Part shown: positions 5,767 through 33,047 of the stretch, piece by piece
How positions within the stretch are numbered: the stretch's first letter is position 1
Layout: every line of letters starts with the position of its first letter
IMG/VR virus record: IMGVR_UViG_3300050130_000178
Coordinates: 1-33,047 of that record
Direction: 5' to 3' (one strand)
From: a virus
Length of the DNA: 33,047 nucleotides
The notes under the pieces: model-generated
Database searches by the model: none
What the model was told of the DNA's origin: nothing
The model's input: only the letters and a program-made list of their open reading frames with translations
Translations under genes and position numbers: made by a program

Positions 5767-6005
5767 TTGAGAGCCCTCTGTAAGATCGAAGCCGCCCACA
5801 GTGTGGTGAGCAACCACGCGATACCAAACGTAAAAATGACCGGGAACGCGTACCAGCGCCACACCTCGAGCGGCCCCGGCGTCACAAGGTGGATCATGAA
5901 GCCGAAGAGGGTGGTCGCGACTCCGGCGAGCGCGATCGCGACCAGAATGCCGACGATCCGCCCCTGCGGCGGGACCTGAAACTCGAACGGTTTAGACGGC
6001 CTCAT
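5763..6005 (-). CDS. two-helix membrane protein
   Basis: 80 residues from ATG 6005, with TCGGAGG nine bases upstream; the GTG at 6014 is too close to that site. Two TM helices are clear: about 17-40 (GRIVGILVAIALAGVATTLFG) and about 53-72 (AFPVIFTFGIAWLLTTLWAA), joined by a short Pro/Trp loop, with a basic end. Holin-like in size and layout, but it lies in the integrase operon and not in the lysis region, so a holin call would be weak. The start overlaps the integrase 3' end by 14 nt. Confidence 0.65.
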   Translation of the reverse strand: MRPSKPFEFQVPPQGRIVGILVAIALAGVATTLFGFMIHLVTPGPLEVWRWYAFPVIFTFGIAWLLTTLWAASILQRALK

Positions 6006-7095
6006 GGGCGACACCTCCGATTCGTAGGGAAAACGCCTCCGCGGCGGTGCGCTGATCCTCGCGGGTGACGTGCGCGTAGCGCAACGTCGTCTTCATGTCC
6101 GCGTGGCGCAGGAGCTCCTTGACCACTGTCGCCGGCGTGCCCAGCGCGAAGAGCTGGGTCGCAAAGCCGTGCCGGAACGCATGGAGCCCCGCCGGCGGGA
6201 TCCCGAGCTTTTTTAAGAGCGGAGCGAAGTGAGAGCGTCGCACCCCGCTGCTCCAAATCGGCTTTTTGGGATCCCGCGGCGAAGCGAACAAGAGACCGCC
6301 CGAGTCGCCCTCGGGACGCTGGTAGGTCCACTCGGCAAGCTCGCGCGCGAGCACGTCGGGCATCGGCAGCGTGGTGGCGGAGCCCGCGCTCTTCGTCGAT
6401 TGCACGACGCCCATGTAGGCGCCCTGACCGATGGTGATCTGCTTGGCGGCGAAGTCGATGTGACGCCACTCGAGCCCGAGCGCCTCGCCGCAGCGCATAC
6501 CTGTATAAGCCAACAGTGCATAGAGCGCCCGCCACGGATACGGAGCCGCCTTCAGGATTCGGGAGGTCTCCTCCGGCGTGAAGCAGCGCATTTCAGCGAC
6601 CGCCGAGCGCTTGGCGCCCAGGCGCAGGTGCTTGAGATCCGGCACCCGGCCGGCGTAGCCGTTGTCGACGGCGGCGCGGATGGCATGTGCCAGAACCGTT
6701 ACAGTCAGGCGCACCGTGCGCGGCGCCTTGCCGTCCTTTTCGAGCTCGGCGACCAGTTTCGTAAAATCGCGCGAGGCGATCTCGGCAACCGTCTTACCGC
6801 CCAGGAGCGGCAGAAGCCGGCAGCGCATGATCGACCGGTAGCCGGCGACGGTCGCGGGCTTCTTCTGCGCGCACACCTCGCCCAGGAAGATGGGCGCCCA
6901 GCGATTCAGCGTGATGAGCTCGCCCGCCGAGGGTCCGGCGAGATTGAGCGCCACGAGCCGGGCATCCGCAGCCGAGCGCGCCTGCTTCGCCGACTTGAAG
7001 TGCCCGAGCGGAATGCGCCGCTCGCGACCGGCGGCGCGCAGCCGAAGGGTGTAGTTGCCGGAGCGCTCCTGCCGGACGGTGCCCTTCGCGTTCAC
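5992..7095 (-). CDS. int: tyrosine recombinase (phage integrase)
   Basis: 367 residues. All catalytic residues of the family are present: R201 (TGMRCGEAL), K235 (STKSAGS), H305-xx-R308 (LHAFRHG), H331 (LLRHADMKTT) and the nucleophile Y340 (RYAHV). Residues 1-45 look like an arm-site DNA-binding region and about 60-145 like the SAM-like core-binding domain. It would integrate and excise the phage genome at attP/attB. GTG start at 7095 overlaps the previous stop (GTGA) and has no strong ribosome site of its own, so it depends on coupling. The gene is embedded in a run of overlapping small genes, unusual for an integrase. No attP core was identified. Confidence 0.95.
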   Translation of the reverse strand: MNAKGTVRQERSGNYTLRLRAAGRERRIPLGHFKSAKQARSAADARLVALNLAGPSAGELITLNRWAPIFLGEVCAQKKPATVAGYRSIMRCRLLPLLGGKTVAEIASRDFTKLVAELEKDGKAPRTVRLTVTVLAHAIRAAVDNGYAGRVPDLKHLRLGAKRSAVAEMRCFTPEETSRILKAAPYPWRALYALLAYTGMRCGEALGLEWRHIDFAAKQITIGQGAYMGVVQSTKSAGSATTLPMPDVLARELAEWTYQRPEGDSGGLLFASPRDPKKPIWSSGVRRSHFAPLLKKLGIPPAGLHAFRHGFATQLFALGTPATVVKELLRHADMKTTLRYAHVTREDQRTAAEAFSLRIGGVAHEAV

Positions 7096-20716: not shown

Positions 20717-21144
20717 CCCTTCACAGACTCCTCGATGCTCGCGCGCAGCGAATCGGCGAACGCCTGCACCTGCGCCTCCGCGGTCTGCTCAAACGCGGGC
20801 TCCAGCCACGGCCGCGCGCTCTCCTTCCTCGTCCCGCGCTCCGTGAACTGCACCGCGTAATACGCCTCCTTCGTGACGCCCAGGTGCGCAAGCCCATCGG
20901 TGCCGTTGGCCTTGATCGATGTGCTCACGCGGATCTGCGTCGCGGAAAACCCGGGCTGCAGGAGCCGGCCGTGCTTGCCGCTGCGGTGCGACCGGACGCC
21001 CTGAGGGATGATGGCGCGCGCGCGGTCGAGCGCCGGTTTGATCCCCGCCTTCATCGCCTTTCGTAAGTCGCGCTTCGCCACGTTGCGCGCGAGGCGGTCC
21101 AACTGCTGGCCGAGCTCCCGCGCGCCCACGAGCGCATTACTCAC
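20713..21144 (-). CDS. HK97 gp10-like tail completion protein
   Basis: 143 residues from a GTG at 21144 that overlaps the previous stop (GTGA). LGQQLDRLARNVAKRDLRKA and GIKPALDRARAIIPQG at the N-terminus, FTERGTRKESARPWLEPAF near the C-terminus are characteristic of the HK97-gp10_like family, found between head-tail adaptor and terminator genes. Likely neck protein. Confidence 0.85.
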   Translation of the reverse strand: MSNALVGARELGQQLDRLARNVAKRDLRKAMKAGIKPALDRARAIIPQGVRSHRSGKHGRLLQPGFSATQIRVSTSIKANGTDGLAHLGVTKEAYYAVQFTERGTRKESARPWLEPAFEQTAEAQVQAFADSLRASIEESVKG

Positions 21145-21530
21145 GACGGCGCACCCTGGCGGAAGCCCTCCGCCTCGCGCAGCACGCACATCAAGTGCAG
21201 CTCGTGGTGCCGGCCCTCGATGTCGATCGGTGGCCCCTCGATTTCATACCAGTCGTACACGTTGGGCGAGCCTGGGATGCGCTGCCATTTGACGCGCATC
21301 TTGGCCGTGATCCCCGGCCGGTAGCGGATCCGGATGCGCACCGTGGCCTCCGATTGCACCTGGGCGGCGGCCCACAGCTCGCGAGCGGTCAGCGGCTCAA
21401 CGGACGCCCAGATGGGCCCCAGGTAGTCGACGAACACCGTCTTAGTCGCGCCGGAGTTGGTGCGCGCGTCCTGCGGCGCCTGGATCGTCACCCGGTGCCG
21501 CAGCGTCCCCGCGAGGATCATCTCAGCCAT
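21141..21530 (-). CDS. head-tail adaptor (Phage_H_T_join, SPP1 gp16 type)
   Basis: 129 residues. AGTLRHRVTIQAPQDART at the N-terminus, PIWASVEPLTARELWAAAQV and TVRIRIRYRPGITAKMRVKW are the standard blocks of the head-tail joining family (stopper ring). It overlaps the gene before it by 8 nt. ATG 21530 is taken; ATG 21521 is possible. Confidence 0.9.
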   Translation of the reverse strand: MAEMILAGTLRHRVTIQAPQDARTNSGATKTVFVDYLGPIWASVEPLTARELWAAAQVQSEATVRIRIRYRPGITAKMRVKWQRIPGSPNVYDWYEIEGPPIDIEGRHHELHLMCVLREAEGFRQGAPS

Positions 21531-21735
21531 CGACGGTGTCGCCCTTCAGCGGCGGCCGGATCTCGCCACGCGCGCGGAAGTGCTGCCGCTCGCGCTCGAT
21601 CTTCTCGTCGCGCTGGCGGTCCTCCGCCTTCATGTCCGCGATGCGCTTCTCGACCTCCGCGAGCCGCTGCCGGATCGCCGCCGGCATCCAGCCCCGCACC
21701 TTCGTGCACACCCCGCACGGCATGCGGATCCTCAC
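21523..21735 (-). CDS. small coiled-coil protein between connector genes
   Basis: 70 residues. CGVCTKVRGW has a CxxC, then a long charged helix (RLAEVEKRIADMKAEDRQRD, EKIERERQHFRARG) that should form a coiled coil. The GTG at 21735 overlaps the connector stop; ATG 21723 with GTGAGG in front of it is an equally good start. Similar short Cys-plus-helix proteins occur between connector and adaptor genes in other phages; role unknown. Confidence 0.65.
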   Translation of the reverse strand: MRIRMPCGVCTKVRGWMPAAIRQRLAEVEKRIADMKAEDRQRDEKIERERQHFRARGEIRPPLKGDTVDG

Positions 21736-22418
21736 GGATACACCCGCAGCGTATCGAGCGTGTCCTCAAAGGTGGCAAACGGCACTTTTTCAGCCGAGTA
21801 GCGTGGACCGGCGACGACCGCCTCGCGGTTCTCGTTCCAATGCCCGCAAAGCGAGAGGATCGCCTGCTTGGCGCGTGCCGGCACGCCGGACGTGTCGGTG
21901 AAGTCGGTGGGCGACCCGACGCCCTCGTAGCCCGCGGTGAACTCGACCACGACAGCACCCGCCTGTGGCCGGCAGATCGGCCAAAAGGATCCGAACGGCG
22001 GCTCGAGCGTCGGCGGCTCATCGTCGGTCGCCAAAAGGTACTGGTTGGAGATCGCCTGGCCGATGGTGGTGCCATCCCACGGCGTAAGCGGTGTCGCGGT
22101 GCCGACATCGTCCCAGGCGATGTACGTGAACTTGTCGATGCTGATCACCGGGCAGCGCGGGAGCCTGATGCGCTGGTCGGTCCACCACTTCTCGATGATC
22201 GGGAAGCACGGCAGCGTGTAGCGCCAGCTCTGCGGCATGAAAGCGCGGCGGGTGAACTCCTCGGCCTGCTCGCGCGCGGCCTGCTGGTAGATCAGGAGCT
22301 GCGAGTCGTTGTCGACGATGTCCGCGTCAATGCGGCACTGAAGTTTGACCTCCGCAAGCGACACGGGCTCCGCCAGCGGTTCGACAATGCGCCTGAGCGT
22401 CCAGCCATAGGGAGTCAT
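21732..22418 (-). CDS. head-tail connector, gp6-like
   Basis: 228 residues from ATG 22418 (GGAAAGG eight bases upstream). The N-terminal LAEPVSLAEVKLQCRID, the block EFTRRAFMPQSWRYTLPCFP, PRCPVISIDKFTY, and the end VPARAKQAILSLCGHWNENRE match gp6-like head-tail connectors (ring below the portal). It is the first structural gene after the glycan cassette, and its first 92 bases are also read, in another frame, as the end of the last cassette gene. Confidence 0.85.
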   Translation of the reverse strand: MTPYGWTLRRIVEPLAEPVSLAEVKLQCRIDADIVDNDSQLLIYQQAAREQAEEFTRRAFMPQSWRYTLPCFPIIEKWWTDQRIRLPRCPVISIDKFTYIAWDDVGTATPLTPWDGTTIGQAISNQYLLATDDEPPTLEPPFGSFWPICRPQAGAVVVEFTAGYEGVGSPTDFTDTSGVPARAKQAILSLCGHWNENREAVVAGPRYSAEKVPFATFEDTLDTLRVYP

Positions 22419-23115
22419 GCTCTGCACCTTTCCAGTCCGGGAGCCAGGGACCGCCCAACGTGAAGTGCGCGATCTGCGGTCGAGCCGGCTTCGGCTGCAC
22501 GCCAACGAGCCAGTTCCACTCGCCCGGAAGCCTACCGACCTCCTCATCCTTGAGCCAGCAAAATCGGTGCAGGTCCCGGCCGGGCGCATCGTTTAGGAGC
22601 TTCAGCGTCAGAAACTGGTTCGCCGGATGATCGCAGTTGAAGAGCATGACGCTGCTCCAATTTTTGCGCGGATACGCCAACTGCGGCTGGCCGTCCATTT
22701 TCGTCTCGCCCTCGCCGACCTTGATCGGCTGGTGCTGCACCACCTGCACCGCGTACTGAGGATCCGCGAACGCGAAGAGCTCCGCGACGTCGCCCAGGAA
22801 CACGACATCGCAATCGACGAAGAGCGCGAAGCCATGCTGCGCGAGGATCGGTGTCAAAAAGCGACTGATCGCAAACTCGGTCGACTGCGGCGCGTCCGAG
22901 ATCTCATCCCACATCGTGTGGCACTTGCCGCAGATGCGCGACGGCCGGCGCAGGATCCCGGACTCGGCCAGGCGCCGCAGCTTAAGTGCGGTGAGAAAAA
23001 CCGGCGCGCTCGCGTGATGGAACAAACTGTGACAGGCGACCTCGAACGCGTCCTTCTCGCGCGGGTCGAAGCCGATGAAAACTCTGTGGCGCCCGTCGCT
23101 ATAAGCGTCGTTCAT
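22327..23115 (-). CDS. GT-A glycosyltransferase, last gene of glycan cassette
   Basis: 262 residues. VFIGFDPREKDAFEVACHSL at the N-terminus, FALFVDCDVVFLGDVAELF with the DxD motif at D101/D103, YPRKNWSSVMLFNC, LPGEWNWLVG and IAHFTLGGPW are blocks of GT8-like, GT-A glycosyltransferases. AGGAAG six bases before ATG 23115; ATGA overlap with the previous gene. The recognisable domain ends near residue 241; the last 21 residues (AHCRTAGGARVACGGQTSV and two more) are encoded inside the connector gene and look like read-through sequence. Sugar donor unknown. Confidence 0.85.
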   Translation of the reverse strand: MNDAYSDGRHRVFIGFDPREKDAFEVACHSLFHHASAPVFLTALKLRRLAESGILRRPSRICGKCHTMWDEISDAPQSTEFAISRFLTPILAQHGFALFVDCDVVFLGDVAELFAFADPQYAVQVVQHQPIKVGEGETKMDGQPQLAYPRKNWSSVMLFNCDHPANQFLTLKLLNDAPGRDLHRFCWLKDEEVGRLPGEWNWLVGVQPKPARPQIAHFTLGGPWLPDWKGAEHDSLWLDAQAHCRTAGGARVACGGQTSVPH

Positions 23116-23837
23116 TTGTACTTCCTATCGCCTTTTAAGTGATCCGACCACGGCCACAGCGGTGAGCGGCGCCACACGTCGCCGCGGCCGCCCGGCGTCA
23201 TATCGTGCACGAGCTGCGGGAAGCGCATGAGCGCCGCATCGAACACGAAAGCGCTGTGGTGCTCCTTCAGCGCAAGAAACCGGTCGCTGGTGTAGAGGTC
23301 CGAGAACTCGATCAGCACCGGCAGCGCATCCGGCACCCGGTAGAGCTGGAAGCCGATCTCAGACCACTTCGGATGGCGCCCTAAGTGCGCTAGGGCGCGC
23401 TTGCCCGGAAGCCAGCCGACGATCACGCGCGAGGGCGGTGCGGCCGAGCGGAACACGACATCGCCATCGAACCATGCCAGGTGGTCCGTCTCGCACTCTG
23501 CCGCGGCCGCGAGCGGGATCAGCCCCTGCCGGAAAAACTTGAACGCGTCATATTTCCAGTTGTAGCCGGCCGTGATCGCGCGCTCTTTCCAGTGCGGCTG
23601 CACGTCGAGGCCGCGCACCGCATCGTTTGCGCCGTGCCGGCCGATGAACTCGACAACGCCCGGGATATCGTAGAGCGGCCTGAACTCGCCTCGAGGAAGC
23701 GGCACCGGCTCCTCGCCGTACACGATGAGGTCCACGTCGGGCGGCATGTGGCGTTGGAAGCTCTCCGCGAAACGCTTGCCGTAGACGCCGTACCCCTTCG
23801 GCGACCAGCCGGTGACGACAGTGAGCCCCGGTCTCAC
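23112..23837 (-). CDS. glycosyltransferase-like protein
   Basis: 241 residues from a GTG at 23837 overlapping the previous stop (GTGA). VVTGWSPKGYGVYGKRFAES, then HWKERAITAGYNWKYDAFKF near 82-101, HLAWFDGDVVF with DxD at D124/D126, PKWSEIGFQLYRV and LKEHHSAFVFD suggest a GT-A enzyme related to the neighbouring one in layout but clearly different in sequence. Likely transfers a sugar within the same glycan. Confidence 0.75.
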   Translation of the reverse strand: MRPGLTVVTGWSPKGYGVYGKRFAESFQRHMPPDVDLIVYGEEPVPLPRGEFRPLYDIPGVVEFIGRHGANDAVRGLDVQPHWKERAITAGYNWKYDAFKFFRQGLIPLAAAAECETDHLAWFDGDVVFRSAAPPSRVIVGWLPGKRALAHLGRHPKWSEIGFQLYRVPDALPVLIEFSDLYTSDRFLALKEHHSAFVFDAALMRFPQLVHDMTPGGRGDVWRRSPLWPWSDHLKGDRKYK

Positions 23838-24415
23838 AGCCAGATGATCCGGCCGCGGAGGCGCTTCTCCCAAGCCTCGAGGATCGCCTGCGCAACCGCC
23901 CTCGACGTGACCGAGCGGCGCTCCTTCAGCACCTCCGGCCAGTCGTGCCGGCGTTGAACCATGCCCGAATCGGCGATGAGCGGCGGCGCGATCGCGATCA
24001 GCTGCTGCGAGTCGCGCGTCTTTCGGAACTGCACGTAGCCGTGCAGGCCCGCCTTGCAGGCCGCGTACAGCGCGTCGAAGGACCCAAAGTGCGCGGACGC
24101 CGAGCCGATGATCGCGATGCGCGCGTCCTGGTCGTAGCCCAGGATGAACTCGGCGAGGCGCAACGTGTTGCCGAGGTTGATCGTAAGCGACGCCTGCACC
24201 TGCGCGGCCGTCTGGTCGGCGAGTGCCGTGGGGTGGATTACGCCCGCCGCGAGCACGTAGCCCGTCACGAGCTCGCCCGGCGCCCACTCGTACCAGTCGA
24301 AAGTGCAATCCAGCTCATGCATGGAGGGATTGCAGCGGATCCGGACCGCCTTCTCGCCCGTGAGACTGCACAGCGCCTTGACGATGCTGGTGCTGACGCC
24401 GGTCACCGCGAGCAT
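23834..24415 (-). CDS. short SDR-family oxidoreductase
   Basis: 193 residues, short for an SDR (usually about 250). AVTGVSTSIVKAL stands for the nucleotide-binding TGxxxGxG, with Ser in place of the last Gly; YVLAAGV for NNAG; GSAS (S105/S107) and Y117-xxx-K121 (YAACK) are the catalytic residues. It may reduce or epimerise a nucleotide sugar in the cassette's pathway, or, given the odd motif, have lost cofactor specificity. GAGG six bases before ATG 24415; 13-nt overlap with the previous gene. Confidence 0.75.
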   Translation of the reverse strand: MLAVTGVSTSIVKALCSLTGEKAVRIRCNPSMHELDCTFDWYEWAPGELVTGYVLAAGVIHPTALADQTAAQVQASLTINLGNTLRLAEFILGYDQDARIAIIGSASAHFGSFDALYAACKAGLHGYVQFRKTRDSQQLIAIAPPLIADSGMVQRRHDWPEVLKERRSVTSRAVAQAILEAWEKRLRGRIIWL

Positions 24416-25389
24416 ATGGACCTCACGAGATCCTCGGCCAGAAGCACCGCGTCGATCTTGCCCGCGCGCACCCGCAGCGCCCGCGAACCGATATGCACCA
24501 CGTCGACCAGGCGCGCGTCGGAGCCAGACCGCGGCTGGGCCCGGATCGACAGAAGCGTGCGCGCGAGCTCGAAGCTCGTGACGTCCGGGTAGTACTGCTC
24601 CATCTGCTGGATCATTTGCATCGCCCGGTCGTTGCGCGCACGCGGGCTCTGGGCGGCGATGACCTCCTCCGCCTCCTGACGGCTGCGGCAGCGCGCAAGC
24701 GGCGTCAGCGACGCGCTGGTGAGGCTCACGAGCCCTCGCTGCTCATCCCAGGGATAGAGCGAGGGGAACGGCCCGTCCATGATCGTGACCGCCTTATCGG
24801 TGGGCCCGGACAGAATCGCCGTCAGGCACGGCTCGTAGCGCTCCACGCCCGCCGCATCCATCGCGCAAAAGGTGCAATCGATGGTCCAGTCCCACGCCGC
24901 GTCGTCGACCGGGCATGGTTCCACGTGAAACCGCACGACGTCGGCCAGCTCGCGCGCGAAGTAGGCCCGCGCCTCGCCGACCAGAATGTGCCGCTCGCCC
25001 GTCAGGATCGCGCCCTCCACGCTCTTCAGCCCGAACTCGGCCGGGTCGCGCACGCGGATGAACTCGATCTCCCCCTTTAAGACCTGGCAGTAAGTGCCGA
25101 AATCGACAAGGGAATCGTGCGCCGCAATGGCGTAAAGGTTGACCGGCACGCCGCGCGTGAGAAAGCCGTAGCGATGCATGAAGGCCGCGTGGTGGTCCTG
25201 GCAGTGCTCGCGCGTCTGGCGGTTCCGAGGGTAGTGCGCGCCCTGGTGCAGCCGCGCCGGATTGCCGCCCGAAGCGCCGGTGAAGAGCTCCCCTGCGCGC
25301 TCGTGGAGCTCCACGTCGATCCCCGATTGCTTGAGCGCGAGCGCGATGCTGCACCCGTACCAGCCGCCGCCGAGCACCCGGATTCTCAT
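24403..25389 (-). CDS. FAD-dependent oxidoreductase (DAO family)
   Basis: 328 residues from ATG 25389 (ATGA overlap). RIRVLGGGWYGCSIALALKQ has the Rossmann GxGxxG (G7, G9, G12) and E30 at the end of the second strand for the FAD ribose. GASGGNPARLHQGAHYPRN at about 38-56 resembles the substrate-side segment of DAO-type enzymes acting on 2-hydroxy or amino acids. Shorter than most DAO enzymes but apparently complete. In a glycan cassette it could oxidise a sugar or its carrier; rare in phages. The exact substrate cannot be told. Confidence 0.8.
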   Translation of the reverse strand: MRIRVLGGGWYGCSIALALKQSGIDVELHERAGELFTGASGGNPARLHQGAHYPRNRQTREHCQDHHAAFMHRYGFLTRGVPVNLYAIAAHDSLVDFGTYCQVLKGEIEFIRVRDPAEFGLKSVEGAILTGERHILVGEARAYFARELADVVRFHVEPCPVDDAAWDWTIDCTFCAMDAAGVERYEPCLTAILSGPTDKAVTIMDGPFPSLYPWDEQRGLVSLTSASLTPLARCRSRQEAEEVIAAQSPRARNDRAMQMIQQMEQYYPDVTSFELARTLLSIRAQPRSGSDARLVDVVHIGSRALRVRAGKIDAVLLAEDLVRSICSR

Positions 25390-26033
25390 GTGGACGCGTA
25401 CCAGTCCGCGTGCACGAGGCCGCGCTCGATCACGACCTGGCCGTCCGGCAGGCGCTCGCGGGTCGAGAGCGTGACCTCGCGCCCATAAGGGTCGCCCAGG
25501 GCCTCGAGCCACTGCGCGCGGTTGAAGTGCGGATGCAAGAGCGGATCCGGTCGAACCGTCTTTCCGACGTGCCCGAGCTTCTCCGCGATGTACACCGCCC
25601 GGCTCGCGAAACCGTAGATCCGGTCGATGACCCATGGCAGGTCGACCGTCGGGATGGAGCCGAGCGTGTGTGTGCAGATCACAAGCCCGAACTGCCCGGC
25701 AGGCTCGCCCGAGTAGGGCGGCCACGCCGGATCGTACTTCGTGACCGGGATGCCCCAGAACTCCTCGAGGCCCATGCCGACCGGCACGCCGGTCGCCGCA
25801 TCGTGTGAGCGCCACGCGTACTGCTGGCCCTTGCCGGCGCCATAGTCGAGCGCCGAGCGGATCCGCAAGCGGTCGATGATCTCCTTGATCGGCGACGCGT
25901 GCTGGCGCAAGAAAAGGCCGCTGTACGTTTTCGACCTCTGGTGGTGCTCGCGCGCGGCCAGAAGCGCGGATGCGTAGGCGGGTGAAGCGCGGCGGAGCCA
26001 CTCGCCATGCTGGTCCTGCCCACGCACCCGCAT
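25386..26033 (-). CDS. SAM-dependent methyltransferase
   Basis: 215 residues from ATG 26033, sharing one base with the previous stop (TGATG). SAM motif I is RSALDYGAGKGQQYAW (L62-G69), with FGLVICTHTLGSIP as the post-motif strand/helix of class I methyltransferases. Substrate unknown; between glycosyltransferase and oxidoreductase genes it most likely methylates a sugar, as capping methylation is common in polysaccharide synthesis. DNA or protein methylation is less likely as no recognition domain is present. Confidence 0.8.
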   Translation of the reverse strand: MRVRGQDQHGEWLRRASPAYASALLAAREHHQRSKTYSGLFLRQHASPIKEIIDRLRIRSALDYGAGKGQQYAWRSHDAATGVPVGMGLEEFWGIPVTKYDPAWPPYSGEPAGQFGLVICTHTLGSIPTVDLPWVIDRIYGFASRAVYIAEKLGHVGKTVRPDPLLHPHFNRAQWLEALGDPYGREVTLSTRERLPDGQVVIERGLVHADWYAST

Positions 26034-26902
26034 CACCGAAGCTCCCCTAAAATCTGCGGGCGGATTACGCGCCATGCTTCCCCCGTCGCGAACTCGCGCA
26101 TGGTGAACTGGGAATAGGCGAGCCGCGCAAGCCAGTCCGCGCGCTGCACGTCGGTCGGCACGAAAGGATCCTCGATGTTTCTGAGGTAGCCCTCCGCAAT
26201 CGGTCCGGCGGCCGCCTCTCCCAAGTTCAGCACCGGAACGCCCGCCAATATTGCCTCAAAGCAGGCATTGGAGCCGTGCGTGATGAGCACGTGCGCGCCC
26301 TCGAGCACCTCCTCGATGGTCTCCGGCAATGCCGAAAAACGGCTGCCGGATATCGGCACCGCGTCGCGCCAGGACGGCTTCGGCCGGTAGATGATGTGCC
26401 GCGTGACGCCGTTCTCCCGCAGCCCGCGGATGAGCTTCTTCGACCAGCGCGTCGGATCGTGCAGCCCGTAGAACTCGTGATATTTGGCGCTCGAGCCGGC
26501 GATCAGGATGTGCCCCTTCGGCGTCAGAGGCCGCCACGGCTTCACCTCGAGCCCGAGCGCGTCGACGCGGTCGTGCGGCCGCGCGATTTTCAAGCTCGCG
26601 GTTGGCTGGTGCGCATCGATTGCGACCCGCCAGTACTCCCACAATTTGACCGGCGACGCGGCGGCGTGCCGGGTGTAGCCTTTGTCGAGGTAAACGATAT
26701 GGATGCCCGCATTCCAATGTGCCCGGAAGAGCTCCCGAGATTTGACGCCGACCATCACCGCGACATCACAGTCCGCGATCTCGACGGCCGGCAGAAGCGC
26801 ACGCGCGAAACCCTCATCCCCGAGCGACCGAACGCCGTCAAGGAAAGCATCCGCGAGCAAGCGCTCGCGCGGCTTGTCCGACATCCAGAAGCAGACCTTC
26901 AT
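26033..26902 (-). CDS. capsule-synthesis-like glycosyltransferase, paralog 3
   Basis: 289 residues from ATG 26902 (ATGA overlap). Two-domain GT-B layout: KVCFWMSDKPRERLL start, HILIAGSSAKYHEFYG at the second domain, IIYRPKPSWRDA at 170-181 and THGSNACFEAILAGVPVLNL near 208-227, the donor-binding pattern of capsule polysaccharide (Caps_synth-like) and Kdo-transferase-type enzymes. The C-terminal SQFTMREFATGEAWR recurs in the next gene upstream. Together with the two upstream genes it forms a tandem triplicate. Confidence 0.75.
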   Translation of the reverse strand: MKVCFWMSDKPRERLLADAFLDGVRSLGDEGFARALLPAVEIADCDVAVMVGVKSRELFRAHWNAGIHIVYLDKGYTRHAAASPVKLWEYWRVAIDAHQPTASLKIARPHDRVDALGLEVKPWRPLTPKGHILIAGSSAKYHEFYGLHDPTRWSKKLIRGLRENGVTRHIIYRPKPSWRDAVPISGSRFSALPETIEEVLEGAHVLITHGSNACFEAILAGVPVLNLGEAAAGPIAEGYLRNIEDPFVPTDVQRADWLARLAYSQFTMREFATGEAWRVIRPQILGELR

Positions 26903-27741
26903 ACCAAGCCCTCCGAGCGCAAATAGCGCCACGCATCGCCCGAGGCCATCTCCGCGATCGACCACTGGCACCACGCAATGTCGGCGCACCACTGCTCGCG
27001 GCCGGATGGTGGTTTATAGGGATTTTCGATCTCGCTCAGCGACTGCGATGCAAAGCGCTGCCCGACGCCGCCCCAGCAAAACGCCGGGATGCCACGCACG
27101 ATCCCGTCGACCGCGACATTGGAGTGGTGGGTAACGACCGCCCAGGCGCCGCTCAGTATTTCCTCGAGCTCCTGCGTGCGCGGCGACCAGCCGGCGCCCG
27201 GAAGCGGCGCGGCATCCTTCCAGGACGGCTTCGGCCGGTACACGATCGGCCGGTCGGTGTGCTTGCGGATCTCAACTATTGCCGCGCGCTCCCACTCGGT
27301 CGGCCGGAAGCCCTCCGCGATCGCGCCCTTGTCGCCCATGCCGGCCAGGAGGATGTGCGAGCCGCCCCGGCGCCATGGACTAATTCCGATGCCGAACCGC
27401 TCAAAGCGTCCAGGGGAGTGGGAAGTGCTTTGAAAATAAACGTTCGGATGGCGCGAGTTGCGGACTAGTTTGTGGTAGCCGGTCCAGCGGCCGCCCTCGC
27501 GCCGGCCCCACCACCCCAGGTCGATGTAGATCGCGTTCTTACCGGCGTTGATGTGGTCGGCGAAGATTTTTGGCGTGTTCCCCTCGAGCCCGTAGAACAC
27601 GACCGTGTCGTATATTTCACCTTTCCAGTACTGCTCGAGGCCCCAGATTGCAGGCTCGCCGCAGCTCTTGATGCCCTTCAGCATCGACCGGCATGTGAGC
27701 CGCGAGCGGTGGTGGTCCTTGATTTCAAATACCGCGATCAC
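26899..27741 (-). CDS. capsule-synthesis-like glycosyltransferase, paralog 2
   Basis: 280 residues, GTG start at 27741 overlapping the previous stop (GTGA). IVYRPKPSWKDAAPLPG at 166-182, VVTHHSNVAVDGIVRGIPAF near 202-221 and CQWSIAEMASGDAWRYLR near the end align by eye with the same three blocks of the downstream gene. N-terminal half has NAIYIDLGWWGRREGGRW. GT-B fold donor site inferred from the HxSN...EA-like segment, though the usual Glu is Asp here. Confidence 0.75.
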   Translation of the reverse strand: MIAVFEIKDHHRSRLTCRSMLKGIKSCGEPAIWGLEQYWKGEIYDTVVFYGLEGNTPKIFADHINAGKNAIYIDLGWWGRREGGRWTGYHKLVRNSRHPNVYFQSTSHSPGRFERFGIGISPWRRGGSHILLAGMGDKGAIAEGFRPTEWERAAIVEIRKHTDRPIVYRPKPSWKDAAPLPGAGWSPRTQELEEILSGAWAVVTHHSNVAVDGIVRGIPAFCWGGVGQRFASQSLSEIENPYKPPSGREQWCADIAWCQWSIAEMASGDAWRYLRSEGLV

Positions 27742-28532
27742 AGCCGGTCCGAGAGCAAGGCAATGAACGGCGCACCGCTCTCAATTTCGGACACCCGCCA
27801 CATCGCCCAGGCCAATGATTGAAAGGTCGGCAGCCGGTCCGGGAGCGATTTAGGCAGCGGACACGGCGGCTTCGCCGGATCCAGGTACGTCGCCGCGCGC
27901 CGGCCGATCCAATGCGGGAAACCGTAGAACACTGGGATTCCCCACAGTAGCGCCTTCAATGCGGCGCCGGATCCCCAGGTCACGACCGCCGCGGCGCGCG
28001 AGAGGTCGGACTCCAGCGCGGGCCCGATGCCCGACTCGCCCGGGTGCTTGCGCAGGCGCACATGCATCTTCGTCTCCCGGTGCACCGGGCCCAGCTGGTT
28101 CTGAGACCAGTGATGCGGCTCGCGGATGCCGGGCGGCCCGATGCCGCGCGTCTCCAGGATCACGATCTCATCGCCTGACTGGCGCCACGGTCGAATCGGT
28201 GTTTGACACGCGTCCCACCGGTCCGGGGAGCCCGTCGGCCACTGGCCCGCGCCGTTGTGGTTGCCGCGGGACATCGCATACCAGAAGTCGCCGTTCCAAT
28301 CGCGCCCGAGGTAGCCGTTCTCGCACACGATGACGCGCGCGCGCTGCGACTCGTACTGCTTCGCGAGCACGTCCCAATGCCCGTAGCGATTCCAGATCAC
28401 GAGCACGTCGGTCGGCTGGATATCGCCGCCCATGTTGCCGTGGATGGTGAAGCCGCAGCGGCGCAAGCCCAACTCGAAAGCGACGCGCCGGTACGCCGGG
28501 TCCTGGCGGATTAGCAGGATGGCTCGGGGCAC
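27738..28532 (-). CDS. capsule-synthesis-like glycosyltransferase, paralog 1 (divergent)
   Basis: 264 residues, GTG at 28532 with GAAGG about 10 bases upstream and a 22-nt overlap with the previous gene. VVTWGSGAALKALLWGIPVF near 183-202 and WRVSEIESGAPF near 245-256 correspond to the donor-site and C-terminal blocks of the next two genes, but the RPKPSW block is replaced by HVRLRKHPGESG. ARVIVCENGYLGRDWNGDF suggests the same N-terminal fold. The loss of the His in the donor block may mean a different donor or an inactive partner. Confidence 0.7.
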   Translation of the reverse strand: MPRAILLIRQDPAYRRVAFELGLRRCGFTIHGNMGGDIQPTDVLVIWNRYGHWDVLAKQYESQRARVIVCENGYLGRDWNGDFWYAMSRGNHNGAGQWPTGSPDRWDACQTPIRPWRQSGDEIVILETRGIGPPGIREPHHWSQNQLGPVHRETKMHVRLRKHPGESGIGPALESDLSRAAAVVTWGSGAALKALLWGIPVFYGFPHWIGRRAATYLDPAKPPCPLPKSLPDRLPTFQSLAWAMWRVSEIESGAPFIALLSDRL

Positions 28533-29146
28533 AGCTTCGCGGCCTTCAGCGCTTGAGGCAGGTTGCCCTTGTCGAAGTACGGGAGCGCGGTGTCGGGCGA
28601 GGTGTTGATCACCTTGACGCCCGCCTCGTAGAGCTCCGCCGCCATCGGTCCCATTTGAGCGACGAAGTTCGTCCAGCCGTCGCCGCGATTGAGCCCGGGC
28701 GGGTGCTCGCCGAAGTAGTGCGCCTTGCCGTCAATGCGCTTCATGTCGAAACCGACCAGGATCAGGCGCTTCGCGCCAAACATGACCGCGAGGTTCATCG
28801 CCTGCGCACCGGAGTTCCCGATGTGGCCGCCGAGCTTTATTTTTCCGGCTTCGGTGCTGAGACCTGGCCCGCGGACACCTTCGACGTGATGGAGCCTATA
28901 TTTTTGGCTGGCCTTGGCGTCCTGACTCCAGAGCTCCGTTCGCGGGCTGTGCTGAACGACGTGTTCGTGATGGGCGTCCCACCACCGCCAGTCTGCCGCG
29001 TAGAGCCAGCCGGCCTGGTGGTAGAGGTAGATCCCGTCGTTGACGGCGATGACCGGCCATCCAGGGAGAAGGGACGTGTCGCAGAGCCCGGCGGTGGGTC
29101 CGCTGGCGAGGATGATGCAGGTTTTTCCGACGTCTCTGAATCGCAA
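28511..29146 (-). CDS. DUF115/sialyltransferase-like glycosyltransferase
   Basis: 211 residues. TTG start at 29146 with the strong site GAGGAGG five bases away. TCIILASGPTAGLCD (residues 9-23), VIAVNDGIYLY, GNSGAQAMNLAVMFGAKRLI (110-129) and LVGFDMKRIDGKAHYF are the blocks shared by DUF115/MptE-like proteins and GT42-type sialyltransferases: a nucleotide-binding GxGPS-like loop and the SGxxAxxxAxxxGxKxIxLxGxD segment. First gene of the cassette. Could transfer a nonulosonic acid or another activated sugar; donor unknown. Confidence 0.75.
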   Translation of the reverse strand: MRFRDVGKTCIILASGPTAGLCDTSLLPGWPVIAVNDGIYLYHQAGWLYAADWRWWDAHHEHVVQHSPRTELWSQDAKASQKYRLHHVEGVRGPGLSTEAGKIKLGGHIGNSGAQAMNLAVMFGAKRLILVGFDMKRIDGKAHYFGEHPPGLNRGDGWTNFVAQMGPMAAELYEAGVKVINTSPDTALPYFDKGNLPQALKAAKLCPEPSC

Positions 29147-29289
29147 GGGTCCTCCTCAACGATGCGGACGACACCCTGCGAGTAAAGCATCAAGCCGACG
29201 GCGCGCGGCACGGTCAATATTTGGTGCGGCATGACCAGGCCGGTCACGTGCAGGCTTGAGAATCTGCGTAAGGCTTCGACTTTCATCAT
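28837..29289 (-). CDS. small post-capsid protein, 3' end running into the cassette
   Basis: 150 residues as read, but only the first 50 or so look like a natural protein: MKVEALRRFSSLHVTGLVMP, HQILTVPRAVGLMLYSQGVV and RIVEEDP, resembling the short proteins with a GxxVxVP...A..L...G pattern found after capsid genes. From residue 48 the frame overlaps the first cassette gene and turns Ser/Pro/Thr-rich (SSSPADPPPG onward), the look of a shadow frame. The original gene probably ended near here and lost its stop when the cassette joined. Start ATG 29289 or 29286; ribosome site weak. Confidence 0.55.
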   Translation of the reverse strand: MMKVEALRRFSSLHVTGLVMPHQILTVPRAVGLMLYSQGVVRIVEEDPCDSETSEKPASSSPADPPPGSATRPFSLDGRSSPSTTGSTSTTRPAGSTRQTGGGGTPITNTSFSTARERSSGVRTPRPAKNIGSITSKVSAGQVSAPKPEK

Positions 29290-29389: not shown

Positions 29390-30652
29390 CTAGTCCGTGA
29401 ATACCCCCTTGATCAAGGCTTGCGGACGATAGACCGTGAGAGCCAAGCGCTCCTCGGTCAGGATCGTGACCATGTTGCGGCGGAAGTTGTCGCTGTCCTC
29501 ACGCGACAGCTCGATGGCGGCCTGCATGCGATCCCAGATCTGAGCGGCAAGCGTGCCGTTCGCGGTCAGGAATTGCCCCTTTACCTGAGAGTTGGTGACG
29601 ATGACCGGCAGGCCCCAGATCCGCGGCACGCCGTCAGACAGCGGGTTGCCGATGATGTAGCGGCCGAGGGTGTCCTTCAGCAGCTCGATCGACTCCCAGT
29701 CAATCGGATTCAGCACCACGAACTCCGGGAAGTACTCCGAGAGGTACAGCTGCGTCATCGACATGCGAAGCGTGTCGATTTTGGTCGATCCGCCGCCCTG
29801 ACGGGATGCATCGTAGCCGGTGGCCTGCGCCATGAGTCCGACCAGACCGCCGTCCGAGCCGTCGCCATTCAGAAGCTCCCGCTCCTCCTCGAGTGCAAGC
29901 GCATACGACAGACGGCCGTCGATGTAGCTCTGCAACATCGGCGCATCCTCGAGCACCTGGCGCGACGCCAGAATGAAGTGCGCGATGGTCACGACCGGCG
30001 CGGTCGCAAACTGGAAGGTGATGTTGGACTCGTTCTTGAGGATATTTTCACCCGCCGCCGTCGGCGAGCCGCCTGCCTGCGGTCCTGCAAGGTCCGTGTA
30101 CACGAGCTCCTGCGGGAAGAAAATGATGTTGGAGATCGTCTGACCGACCCGGAGCATGTTCCGGATCCGCAGCTTGCGCATTGCCGGGAACACGATCTCC
30201 GGAACGCGCTCGGGCGCGACCAAAGGCTGCGTGGTGCCGGAAGCGTTGACGATCTGCTTCACCTCCATGCGGCCGCGTTTCGCGCCGCCGGTGGCCATCG
30301 CCTTGTACTCGGCGCACTCGGTGAAGAGCTGCCCGAGCGACTTCTGGTCGTTCTGCTGCTCAGTCAGTCGATTGCCCTTGGCCTCGATTTTGTCGAGCCG
30401 CGTGCCGACGGTGTTCAGGCTCTCGGTGAGCGCGACCATCGCGGCCTTCGTCTCCGCGGATGCCGTGCCGCTCGCTGCGATCTCGGCGTTGGCCTTGACG
30501 ATGAAAGACTGAAGCTCGCGATGCTGCTTCAGGAACTCGCTTTTAAGGTCCTCCAGATTTTTGATTTCGGGCGACGTGCGCCCATTGTCCGTGCCTTCTT
30601 TGATCTCAAAAGGGCGCGGACGCCGTAGCATGGCGTTTCGCTGCAAATGCAT
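29390..30652 (-). CDS. major capsid protein, HK97 fold
   Basis: 420 residues. Residues about 28-110 are a charged coiled coil (NLEDLKSEFLKQHRELQSFI and on), the delta/scaffold part removed by the protease; the mature shell follows with RGRMEVKQIVNASGTTQPLV, FILASRQVLEDAPMLQSYID (E-loop/spine region), VLNPIDWESIELLKD, GLPVIVTN and the ending ALTVYRPQALIKG, all hallmarks of the Phage_capsid (HK97) family. Weak ribosome site; ATG 30652 lies five bases after the protease stop, and ATG 30631 is an alternative start. Confidence 0.95.
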   Translation of the reverse strand: MHLQRNAMLRRPRPFEIKEGTDNGRTSPEIKNLEDLKSEFLKQHRELQSFIVKANAEIAASGTASAETKAAMVALTESLNTVGTRLDKIEAKGNRLTEQQNDQKSLGQLFTECAEYKAMATGGAKRGRMEVKQIVNASGTTQPLVAPERVPEIVFPAMRKLRIRNMLRVGQTISNIIFFPQELVYTDLAGPQAGGSPTAAGENILKNESNITFQFATAPVVTIAHFILASRQVLEDAPMLQSYIDGRLSYALALEEERELLNGDGSDGGLVGLMAQATGYDASRQGGGSTKIDTLRMSMTQLYLSEYFPEFVVLNPIDWESIELLKDTLGRYIIGNPLSDGVPRIWGLPVIVTNSQVKGQFLTANGTLAAQIWDRMQAAIELSREDSDNFRRNMVTILTEERLALTVYRPQALIKGVFTD

Positions 30653-30657
30653 TGTGG

Positions 30658-31389
30658 TTACACCGTAAAAAGTGATTTCGGGATCGAGATTTCCCGCAGA
30701 GCCGTCAAAAGCCCCGCGCCGTCATCGTCATCCCCATCACCACTGCCAGCCTCGCGCCGTAGCGTGCGGGTGAAGCGCGACACAAAGTCCCTTGCGTCGC
30801 CCTTCGAGAGTCCGGCCTCGCGCAGGACCCTCTCAAAATCGGATGGTTTCTCGCACTGATCGATCAGCGACTTGACGCTCGCAAGATCAATGCGCGCGGA
30901 CTCGTCAGCGGGCATGGCCACCGGCGAGACCTCGTAAAGGTCAAATTCTTTGATGGCGCGGCCGCCGTTCGGGATCGGGTCCGAATCGACGGTGTAGCCG
31001 CCGATCGACAGGCCCGAGAGCGCGCCGTGTTTAAGCGACGCGGCCAGGTCCCCAGCTTTGGAGTGACCCGGCGTAAGCTCCCCATGCACCGCGAGCCCCG
31101 TGTCGTCCTCATGAGCCGACAGGTACTTGCCGACCACGGACCGCCGATCGTGGCTCGACAGCATGATCGGCATGCGATCGGACAGCGCGCGCTTAAAAGC
31201 GCCCTTCACTATGGTGTCGCCGTAGGAGTCGACGCCGCCCCACTTCGATGCATAGCCCTTGAACTGCACCGGCGCAGAAGCGCTCGTCTGGACGAACTTC
31301 AACTCGCAACGGTCCAGCGGCAGGTCGCGCGCTTCGATGGCGCGCGAGCCCGCCGACTTAAACTCGAACGGTAGGTACAGGCCTCGCAC
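30658..31389 (-). CDS. prohead protease, HK97 family
   Basis: 243 residues. Catalytic His in IMLSSHDRRSVVGK (H80) and Ser in GALSGLSIGGY (S128), with DLYEVSPVAMPA (E153 nearby) as third block, are those of the U35 prohead proteases. It trims scaffold domains from the capsid protein. The only available start is GTG 31389, since a stop lies four codons upstream; no ribosome site is visible, but TATAAA ends nine bases before the GTG, so a leaderless or reinitiated message is possible. The acidic C-terminal DGDDDDG may be a self-cleaved tail. Confidence 0.9.
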   Translation of the reverse strand: MRGLYLPFEFKSAGSRAIEARDLPLDRCELKFVQTSASAPVQFKGYASKWGGVDSYGDTIVKGAFKRALSDRMPIMLSSHDRRSVVGKYLSAHEDDTGLAVHGELTPGHSKAGDLAASLKHGALSGLSIGGYTVDSDPIPNGGRAIKEFDLYEVSPVAMPADESARIDLASVKSLIDQCEKPSDFERVLREAGLSKGDARDFVSRFTRTLRREAGSGDGDDDDGAGLLTALREISIPKSLFTV

Positions 31390-31597
31390 GCGCGAACTTT
31401 ATACGCGCCGCGCGCAAAACGCTATGGCCGAAGGTCGAACGGCAGCCCGCGCAGGTAGTCCGCGAGCCGACATCGCCACTGGCACTGCCGGATCCCCTGG
31501 TCCTCGCGCCAACATCCGAACTGCGCTACGCCCGCACCACAACATTGCAGGACACTGCCGCCGTTCTGTTCCTGCCGCTGCTGGCGGCGCTTCGCGT
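31390..31597 (-). other. gene-poor gap upstream of the prohead protease
   Basis: 208 bases without a confident gene. One minus-strand frame is open from inside the upstream gene to a stop at 31422 and ends in a Cys/Trp-rich peptide (CWREDQGIRQCQWRCRLADY), but it has no ATG or ribosome site. A TATAAAG at 31402-31396 is the only promoter-like element; no good -35 box pairs with it. The portal gene normally found here is absent. Confidence 0.4.
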
Positions 31598-32296
31598 TTA
31601 AGGCGCGGCTGCGGAGAGTGCCGCCGGAGCGGCCGGCGGGAATTTCGTCGCCCCGGGCTCCGTGAGGCAAGCCTGATTCGATGGCGCGCTCTCCCCCTGG
31701 GCGGTGACCGCCGTCACCGTGAAGCACGAGTTCCCCGCCGGCACGCCCGTCACGGTCGACGTCGCCGCTGTGAGGCCCGCGAGGACTTTCGCCGGCGTGA
31801 TCCCGGCCAAGCCCTCGTAAATGTTGAAGCTCAGCGGCGGAACAATTGCCGCTTTGCTCGTATCGAGCGTCGGTGCCGTCCATTTCAGCGCGACGGAGTA
31901 AGTCGCCGGCGGCGTAGGTGGCGTGATCGCAGGCAGAGCCGAGAATGCGGTCCAGGCGGCCGCCGACGCTGATCCGGTCGCTGTCGTCGTGCACGCCGAG
32001 AACGCCGGCGACAGGTACGCGCCCTTCGGGCAGCTCCACACCTGGGACGTCGGCACCGCGCTCGTGTAGAGCGCCCAGGCGTTCCCGATGTCGATCACCG
32101 CGGCCGCCGAGGTCGGGGCTTGGTAGATCGCACCCGCGCAGTTCGGCCAGGTGGCGCCCGCGGCGCTCATGGGCTTTGCGGCGGTGGCGGATGGACATAT
32201 ATACGGCACCGGAGATGTAAGTGGCGCCGCTGAGCGCGCAGCGAACGCCAGCATGAGGGCGATGGCACCTGCGAAAACGAATGGTAAGCGACGCAT
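31598..32296 (-). CDS. secreted protein with Fn3-like domain
   Basis: 232 residues. MRRLPFVFAGAIALMLAFAA RSAA is a classical Sec signal peptide with cleavage after about residue 24. The mature part has several Cys and Trp (PNCAGAIYQAP; VWSCPKGAYLSPAFSACTTT) and a C-terminal fibronectin III-like unit: YSVALKWTAP, FNIYEG and FTVTAVTAQGESAPSNQA. Ala/Pro/Thr-rich end. Excellent ribosome site AAGGAG before ATG 32296. A signal peptide in a phage structural operon is unusual; it may be an exported accessory or surface-binding protein. Confidence 0.75.
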   Translation of the reverse strand: MRRLPFVFAGAIALMLAFAARSAAPLTSPVPYICPSATAAKPMSAAGATWPNCAGAIYQAPTSAAAVIDIGNAWALYTSAVPTSQVWSCPKGAYLSPAFSACTTTATGSASAAAWTAFSALPAITPPTPPATYSVALKWTAPTLDTSKAAIVPPLSFNIYEGLAGITPAKVLAGLTAATSTVTGVPAGNSCFTVTAVTAQGESAPSNQACLTEPGATKFPPAAPAALSAAAP

Positions 32297-32307
32297 GGCG
32301 GTCTCCT

Positions 32308-33047
32308 TCAGTCGGCCAGAAGCTCGATGATCTCACTTTCCGCCTGCCGCCAGTCAACGCTCGCCGCTCCCTCGCACGCATCCGGCGCCTCGAGCGCGTC
32401 GCCGCCGGCGCCCAGCACGAGCGCACAAGCGCCGGTAGCGATGTCCGCGTCCTCGAGCAAAGCGAGCGCGGCATTGACGCTGACGCCCAGGCGCCCCGAG
32501 AGCTCGTCCTCACCCGACTCCTGTGCGAGAAGCTCGCCCAGAAGCCCCGGTAGCAGCGAACCGCGGACGCCATCCGCGCCCTCGGTTGCGACCAGCCGAC
32601 CGCCGATGACCGCCGGATACCGCCCCTCCGTGTAGCCGCGAGGCGGCTTCGGATACGCCTGCCCCTGGCGCGGCGAGGTGCCCGCGCCGCCGATTTTCTG
32701 CTCCGTGACCGGCGGTGGGACGGTGCCGTAGGCGGCAAAGGTGATCGCCGCGGTGCCGGCCAGGGCGCCACGAGCGGTGAGAAGCCCGGATCCACCGATG
32801 GTGATGGCGGCCGTGCCGGCCAGCGCGCCCGGCTGGCTAGCGGTCGCCGACGCACCAAAGGTGATGTCCGCCTCGCCGGCAAGCGCACCACGCGCCGTGA
32901 GCAAGCCAGACTGGCCGAACGTGACAGCCGCGGTGCCCGCAAGCGCACCGCGAGCGGCGAGCAAGCCCGTCTGACCAAAGGTGATCGCAGCGGACCCAGC
33001 GAGGGCGCCGCGAGCGGCCAGGAGCCCCGACTGGCCGAATGTGATCG
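32308..33047 (-). CDS. repeat protein, partial at window edge
   Basis: At least 246 residues; the frame stays open to the right edge, so the N-terminus is missing. The visible N-terminal 100 residues are 20-residue repeats of the form GLLxARGALAGxAAITFGQS. A Pro-rich linker (YGTVPPPVTEQK; PKPPRGYTEGRYP) and an acidic C-terminal helical part (GLLGELLAQESGEDELSGRL; WRQAESEIIELLAD) follow. Repeats with alternating GALAG and ITF strands occur in phage fibre and surface proteins, where they should stack as beta structure. Possibly a fibre, spike or head decoration protein. Confidence 0.7.
   Translation of the reverse strand, partial: ITFGQSGLLAARGALAGSAAITFGQTGLLAARGALAGTAAVTFGQSGLLTARGALAGEADITFGASATASQPGALAGTAAITIGGSGLLTARGALAGTAAITFAAYGTVPPPVTEQKIGGAGTSPRQGQAYPKPPRGYTEGRYPAVIGGRLVATEGADGVRGSLLPGLLGELLAQESGEDELSGRLGVSVNAALALLEDADIATGACALVLGAGGDALEAPDACEGAASVDWRQAESEIIELLAD
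32737..33047 (-). repeat. 60-bp tandem coding repeats
   Basis: About five units of 60 bp in frame, each encoding ITFxxxGLLxARGALAGxAA with small changes; one unit is strongly diverged (ATASQPGALAG). The array continues beyond the right edge. Unit length is an exact multiple of three, so copy number can change without breaking the frame. Confidence 0.8.

Follow-up and report, generated by a model that had tools for sequence, protein, structure and literature searches.

The nine-gene glycan synthesis cassette that lies between the HK97-type capsid gene and the head-tail connector gene of IMG/VR virus record IMGVR_UViG_3300050130_000178 is reasonably likely, on computational grounds, to be a phage system for glycosylating the virion, most likely its capsid or a protein bound to it, made late together with the head proteins. 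The record, a linear sequence of 33,047 bases that is probably a fragment, was analyzed over its whole length and is called the window below. The nine co-directional minus-strand genes (g1 to g9, numbered from the capsid side; 22327–29146) encode six glycosyltransferase (GT)-like proteins, namely g1, three paralogous GT-B enzymes (g2–g4), g8, and g9, together with a methyltransferase (g5), a DAO-type flavoenzyme (g6), and a short-chain dehydrogenase/reductase (SDR; g7). A preliminary description of this DNA had proposed that the block glycosylates virion proteins or else remodels the host surface. The first of these is the better-supported prediction, because the module keeps to the structural operons of unrelated head types and because g1 is co-inherited with a capsid clade and predicted to be fused to a head protein in relatives.

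About 35 distinct contigs carrying the cassette were gathered by scans with g6 and g8 plus a genome scan, such that the presence of g6 and g8 in them is by construction. They hold the flavin adenine dinucleotide (FAD) oxidoreductase, the SDR, the GT-A enzyme and most partners in a nearly fixed g1–g9 order, nearly always in structural regions; the preliminary description had proposed looking for the same gene order in other phages, and it is indeed found. Among these contigs g7 was present in 33, the GT-Bs in 31, g9 in 30, g5 in 20, and g1 in 19, g6 shares 50–62% identity in most, and the accessory genes vary (FkbM methyltransferases, more DUF115-like proteins, a cupin). At least six kinds of insertion site were distinguished, beside unrelated head genes: behind an HK97 capsid gene, as in the window; behind a lambda-E-type capsid gene (PF03864, 2.4e-96); behind a Mu-type portal gene and a gene for a DnaT_2 protein; before terminase genes, one of these in a Mesorhizobium chromosome; behind a connector and adaptor; and before a T4-type terminase. 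A g6 tree needed six changes of site type where the minimum possible is five, and this grouping by site type indicates that the module moved between head types several times and is found in late structural regions. A tblastn search of 50,697 phage records with the g6 protein returned no match, which places the full module outside the isolate collection within the sensitivity of that search. The earlier impression that such a cassette looks unusual has to be given up, since it is a recurrent conserved module, of which D3 and PAJU2, both cultured phages, are among the carriers of small versions.

A scan of the capsid family, in which g1 was counted if it lay within 1.6 kb behind the capsid gene, gave 75 informative loci. 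The gene was found there in 55, where it stood by itself, was joined by one or two further glycosyltransferases, or came with the complete cassette; in a sister group that includes HK97-like capsids from isolates, the connector directly follows the capsid. On the capsid tree, the presence of g1 amounts to one change: each of the 47 distinct capsids of one side is followed by g1, which is absent behind 13 of a sister clade. Because g1 is fixed behind the capsid and the other content varies, the capsid-connector region can be described as a glycan-gene island with a fixed first gene. In the capsid-linked part of a g1 tree, the gene of the window clusters, with modest support, with its counterparts from other head operons that carry the full cassette, and the nine-gene block probably combines a resident g1 with a mobile g2–g9 module. 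We also considered the capsid C-terminal tail as a shared acceptor and rejected it, as the tails differ among full-cassette capsids and follow no pattern with the presence of g1. In the AT-rich clade (L180, L182, L189, L195, and kin), two consecutive DUF115 genes stand behind the capsid, the first without a start codon and the second as a separate open reading frame (ORF). The same islands contain a recurrent protein of 184–205 residues with a GREFRTFxEFSI motif (L151:5483-6037, L165:5254-5871, L155:8907-9488), which had no Pfam match (one tested) and is perhaps a head decoration protein.

In relatives of the window, g1 overlaps a small head ORF of 80–150 codons, and a programmed −1 frameshift fusing the small head protein to g1 is predicted there with high confidence. 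Counts were made over 48 distinct g1 loci, with expectations from 1000 codon shuffles. The small ORF was open through the overlap, in the sole register from which a −1 shift enters g1, at 46 of the 48, and an in-frame X XXY YYZ heptamer occurred in the overlap at 39 (9.8 expected; standard deviation 2.7, maximum 19); by phase, the slippery heptamers were distributed 47:16:12. At 33 loci none of the start codons ATG, GTG, and TTG stands in the g1 frame ahead of the conserved hhASGPS motif, and 30 of these loci carry the heptamer. Heptamer types follow clades, being A_AAA_AAG or A_AAA_AAA, A_AAC_CCN about 78 nucleotides (nt) before the motif, or C_CCA_AAA; the codon preceding the slippery site varies in residue and ends in A. 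Examples among the capsid-linked loci (L151–L223) are L155:5295-5606 and L180:5313-5573. RNA structure behind the slippery sites was weak (mean z of −0.7 for the A type and −1.3 for the A_AAC_CCN type, against mononucleotide shuffles). A Ser-rich conserved tail of the small ORF was entertained as a glycosylation acceptor and dropped, as it is largely an out-of-frame image of the hhASGPS motif of g1.

The long-cultured Pseudomonas phage D3 has the same arrangement (NC_002484.2 5691-6409; L229:1392-2110). D3 and three relatives place C_CCA_AAG at the same distance from the g1 motif, and D3 has one TTG in the g1 frame, upstream. The annotated start of D3 orf7 (NC_002484.2 5951-6409) lies downstream of the conserved motif. 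PAJU2 provides a natural control: its g1 has been relocated behind the head-closure gene, where an ATG is present and the slippery site is absent. Annotation of this gene is uneven elsewhere, with the PP9W2 glycosyltransferase (L227:4151-4555) given an internal start that removes the conserved N-terminal motif and the g1 of phage phi1 (L230) lacking any annotation. D3 and PAJU2 further carry a hypothetical gene (a GTB-type glycosyltransferase in the PP9W2 annotation) and a methyltransferase gene before the tail genes. These Detrevirus phages (D3, PAJU2, PP9W2) thus resemble the window in having a g1 relative, a GT-B-type gene, and a methyltransferase gene among head genes, but theirs is a small set, and the PAJU2 stretch has no relatives of the FAD oxidoreductase, SDR, g8, or g9.

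In the window itself, the small head ORF, for which no Pfam match was found, is read in the frame that a −1 shift would leave; its C-terminal extent and translation are uncertain. Its overlap with g1 contains no in-frame slippery heptamer. Start codons are available to g1 here and in the nearest kin (TTG preceded by GAGGAGG in the window, GTG in L147, ATG in L150), and this group is predicted to have lost the frameshift.

The enzyme classes given in the preliminary description hold for all nine proteins, by profiles for g1, g5, g6, g7, and g9, by structure models for g4 and g8, and by homology to g4 for g2 and g3, which are considered GT-Bs for that reason. Sequence profiles (Pfam, PHROG) assigned no family to g2, g3, or g8. 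Structure prediction, which had been suggested together with profile searches as a check, gave confident models of g4 and g8, both of which match glycosyltransferases. The PHROG family matched by g1 is named "alpha-2,3-sialyltransferase"; matches of g1 to solved GT42 enzymes were weak, the CstI/CstII-type chains (E 0.15–0.19) ranking below unrelated ferritins. The g4 model aligned with WbbB/KpsC over 241–252 residues (Z 13.6; root-mean-square deviation 4.3–5.5), with non-Kdo (3-deoxy-D-manno-oct-2-ulosonic acid) GT-B-type chains at Z 10.0 or below; by sequence, g4 did not match the capsule-synthesis family profile, gave only a weak PF20471 match in Pfam, and returned no KpsC chain in a profile search of structure chains. 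Profile matches of g5 to methyltransferases were weak, and the adh_short score of g7 (PF00106) fell just under the Pfam cut-off. The g8 model matched bacterial GT6 (Z 15.0) and A64R (Z 14.9), a capsid-glycosylation enzyme of Paramecium bursaria chlorella virus 1 (PBCV-1), tied with many others; its fold is GT-A with a DxD, and with GT8, GT6, and A64R within about 1 Z the family is not separable. For g9, the Pfam GT8 cut-off was missed (15.3 vs. 24.3 bits), the GT8 enzyme GlyE was matched at E 0.011, and the matching PHROG family has no named function. The WxDxD and HxKG residues of g8 were invariant in 28 homologues and the DxD residues of g9 (D101, D103) in 20, which supports the prediction that both are active enzymes. 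None of the nine proteins contained a stretch hydrophobic enough to pass clearly the threshold for a typical membrane helix (maximum Kyte-Doolittle (19) value 1.69, single segments only), and by the same measure none is a multi-pass membrane glycosyltransferase.

Table 1. Features of the window discussed in the text, in minus-strand order (pLDDT, predicted local distance difference test; SAM, S-adenosylmethionine).
Feature	Coordinates	Strand	Evidence
Head maturation protease (flank)	30658..31389	-	phrog_80 1e-41
HK97-type major capsid protein (flank; likely acceptor candidate)	29390..30652	-	phrog_10 major head protein, 1.2e-63
Small head ORF behind capsid	28837..29289	-	310-nt overlap with g1; position and register as in relatives
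GAGGAGG ribosome-binding-like site	29151..29157	-	4 nt before g1 TTG start
g1, DUF115/MptE-like, GT42-like glycosyltransferase, TTG start	28511..29146	-	phrog_4603 1.5e-33; N36, D52, D134 invariant (17 homologues)
g2, GT-B-like glycosyltransferase, paralogue of g3 and g4	27738..28532	-	g2/g3/g4 cross-matches and alignment
g3, GT-B-like glycosyltransferase, paralogue of g4	26899..27741	-	31-32% identity to g4 family
g4, GT-B, beta-Kdo-transferase (KpsC/WbbB) fold	26033..26902	-	Model pLDDT 94.2; Foldseek KpsC 4e-9; Z 13.6
g5, SAM-dependent methyltransferase	25386..26075	-	Methyltransf_23 E 0.025; phrog_24759 "methyltransferase" 8.7e-5
g6, DAO-type FAD oxidoreductase, core marker of the module	24403..25389	-	PF01266 8.7e-9, above cut-off
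g7, short SDR	23834..24415	-	PF00106 2.8e-5; S and YxxxK motif read in sequence
g8, GT-A glycosyltransferase with WxDxD and HxKG	23112..23837	-	Model pLDDT 96.9; GT6 / PBCV-1 A64R fold, Z ~15
g9, GT8-like GT-A glycosyltransferase with DxD	22327..23115	-	Glyco_transf_8 E 0.015; phrog_28018 3.7e-52
Head-tail adaptor/connector (flank)	21732..22418	-	phrog_442 8.8e-21; start set by homology
Head-tail adaptor/closure protein (flank)	21141..21530	-	Conserved behind connector in relatives
Integrase	5992..7095	-	phrog_1 1.2e-63

All nine leftward ORFs described earlier were recovered at their coordinates by a codon-usage gene caller, with starts refined to 26902 (ATG) for g4, 25389 (ATG) for g6, and 23837 (GTG) for g8. 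GC content at codon position 3, taken over the true extent of seven of the ORFs, was 0.78–0.92, and the nine are not chance ORFs, since homologues keep the same order elsewhere. Successive genes overlap by 22 nt (g1/g2), 4 nt (g2/g3 and g3/g4), up to 43 nt (g4/g5), 4 nt (g5/g6), 13 nt (g6/g7), and 4 nt (g7/g8 and g8/g9), and the connector start gives a 92-nt overlap with g9. The placement between capsid and connector likewise held: the minus-strand order is protease, capsid, the nine cassette genes, connector, adaptor, and tail region, with phrog_10 and phrog_442 proteins as flanks (Table 1). The capsid protein of the window shares 44–59% identity with those from other full-cassette phages. 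With an integrase gene present, the phage is probably temperate. At the right end of the window (31422–33047), where portal and terminase genes would be expected, there is no convincing continuous coding frame, which may reflect mis-assembly or truncation of the record at that end. Amid small unassigned genes in the left part, an ORF of 369–387 codons (1336–2499) had no PHROG match. One of the collected loci (L093:1102-3066) encodes a Mu-type portal protein whose C-terminal part matches the Acb1 domain (PF23474, 4.6e-40), which acts against the cyclic-oligonucleotide-based anti-phage signaling system (anti-CBASS).

For virion glycosylation we envisage that g1, kept near the capsid through co-translation with the small head protein, would set or position an early sugar, either on the capsid itself or on a head protein associated with it, and that the KpsC-like GT-Bs (g2–g4) and the GT-A enzymes g8 and g9 would lengthen the glycan from host nucleotide sugars. 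The FAD oxidoreductase and SDR would oxidize or reduce a sugar and g5 would methylate one; where the frameshift occurs, its product, a head-protein domain joined to a glycosyltransferase domain, would bring the enzyme to the capsid. Several points weigh against this reading. Placement in a head operon can equally mean late expression only; the covariation of g1 with the capsid rests on one event, a single split of the tree; the C-termini of g1-bearing capsids display no obvious shared acceptor tail; and clustering revealed no virion protein family, besides the cassette, common to all cassette contigs. The relatives of KpsC, GT8, and GT42 also come mostly from surface polysaccharide synthesis, and peripheral enzymes lacking membrane helices can use lipid-linked acceptors. 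In the scheme above, the acceptor, the order and chemistry of the sugars, and any benefit, e.g., particle shielding or altered adsorption, are inferred.

Those KpsC/WbbB Kdo-transferase, GT8-like, and GT42-like folds would suit remodeling of the host surface, in which infected cells or lysogens would have their lipopolysaccharide (LPS) or capsule altered to block superinfection or change serotype, as would the probable temperate lifestyle and the cassette copy in the Mesorhizobium chromosome; glycosyltransferase clusters of jumbo cyanophages have been read as O-antigen or capsule diversification (PMC7824862). We nevertheless consider it unlikely that the cassette serves this role, given that it encodes no flippase, lipid-carrier, or membrane glycosyltransferase, that it sits in late head operons and not at a lysogenically expressed moron position, and that in relatives the translation of g1 is predicted to be coupled to that of a head gene. 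A GtrA flippase was found in 0 of 21 records (7 of 14 control genomes were positive), and this lack, with that of clear membrane segments, disfavors a complete serotype-conversion system. Glycosylation of tail or adsorption proteins instead of the head would fit CcrColossus, where g1, two GT-B relatives, and g9 come after the tail genes, the position before the tail genes of the D3 and PAJU2 pair noted above, and the glycosylated tail tubes of mycobacteriophages (PMC12619734); with g1 fixed directly behind the capsid in the capsid lineage of the window, we judge a tail target improbable. Least probable, and indeed very doubtful, is that these enzymes add sugars to modified bases in the phage DNA. 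DAO-type flavoenzymes are present in some base-modification pathways. Phage clusters of several glycosyltransferases that decorate DNA also exist (Pyle 2024, as cited in PMC12619734). The cassette, however, lies in a head operon away from replication genes, a thymidylate-synthase-type base hydroxymethylase was found in only 1 of 21 records and is absent from the window (itself probably a fragment), and 22 records held no TET/JBP match in a search for which no control genome was positive.

Glycosylation of virions by phage enzymes is already known (Freeman 2023, as cited in PMC12619734 and PMC10568470), the tailed-phage cases being mainly mycobacteriophages. Chlorovirus PBCV-1 builds a glycan on its major capsid protein with virus-coded soluble glycosyltransferases, and g8 has the A64R fold; the virus is unrelated, however, the tie of A64R with GT6 enzymes in Z indicates no special kinship with g8, and we know of no FAD-SDR pair in PBCV-1. 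The beta-Kdo transferases KpsC/KpsS and WbbB share the fold of g4, at only 10–14% identity and with no Pfam capsule-synthesis match, and gtrABC serotype-conversion cassettes likewise comprise phage glycosyltransferases but include the GtrA flippase and membrane glycosyltransferase that the window cassette lacks. In mycobacteriophages, capsid and tail tube proteins bear glycans at their C-termini (Freeman 2023, as cited in PMC12619734). The likeness, phage glycosyltransferases near virion genes that are predicted to act on virion proteins, makes the comparison drawn in the preliminary description a fair one as to mechanism, homology of the cassette genes to mycobacteriophage enzymes forming no part of it; the present system differs in its nine genes, three redox or methyl tailoring enzymes, fixed order, and occurrence in phages of Proteobacteria, and its acceptor is putative. 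We found no description, in open-licence papers, of the cassette, its link with unrelated head types, or a frameshift between a head protein and a glycosyltransferase.

Tentatively, and with somewhat less than even confidence, we propose that in a large lineage of HK97-type phages including D3 a frameshift fusion brings a glycosyltransferase, on a defined minority of head proteins, to the assembling capsid, and that the sublineage of the window swapped the shift for an overlapping TTG start and gained the mobile FAD-SDR-methyltransferase-glycosyltransferase module, by which a simple glycosylation of the capsid would have become the synthesis of a long tailored glycan. The frameshift, if shown, would be more surprising than the cassette, and it would offer a mechanism that brings a glycosyltransferase to the capsid by fusion to a head protein. 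If virion glycosylation is correct, a conserved mobile multi-enzyme glycan cassette would reside in the head operons of many proteobacterial phages, beside unrelated capsids, and the simplest form of the cassette, in D3, would be immediately testable. This would matter for the stability of phages, their adsorption, and their recognition by the immune system, as well as for the annotation of viral-metagenome glycosyltransferases, now mostly labeled "LPS modification" or "sialyltransferase." Given the recurrence of the module in about 35 viral sequences with differing head genes, glycosylation by tailed phages of the particles they build is probably both commoner and more elaborate than current knowledge suggests.

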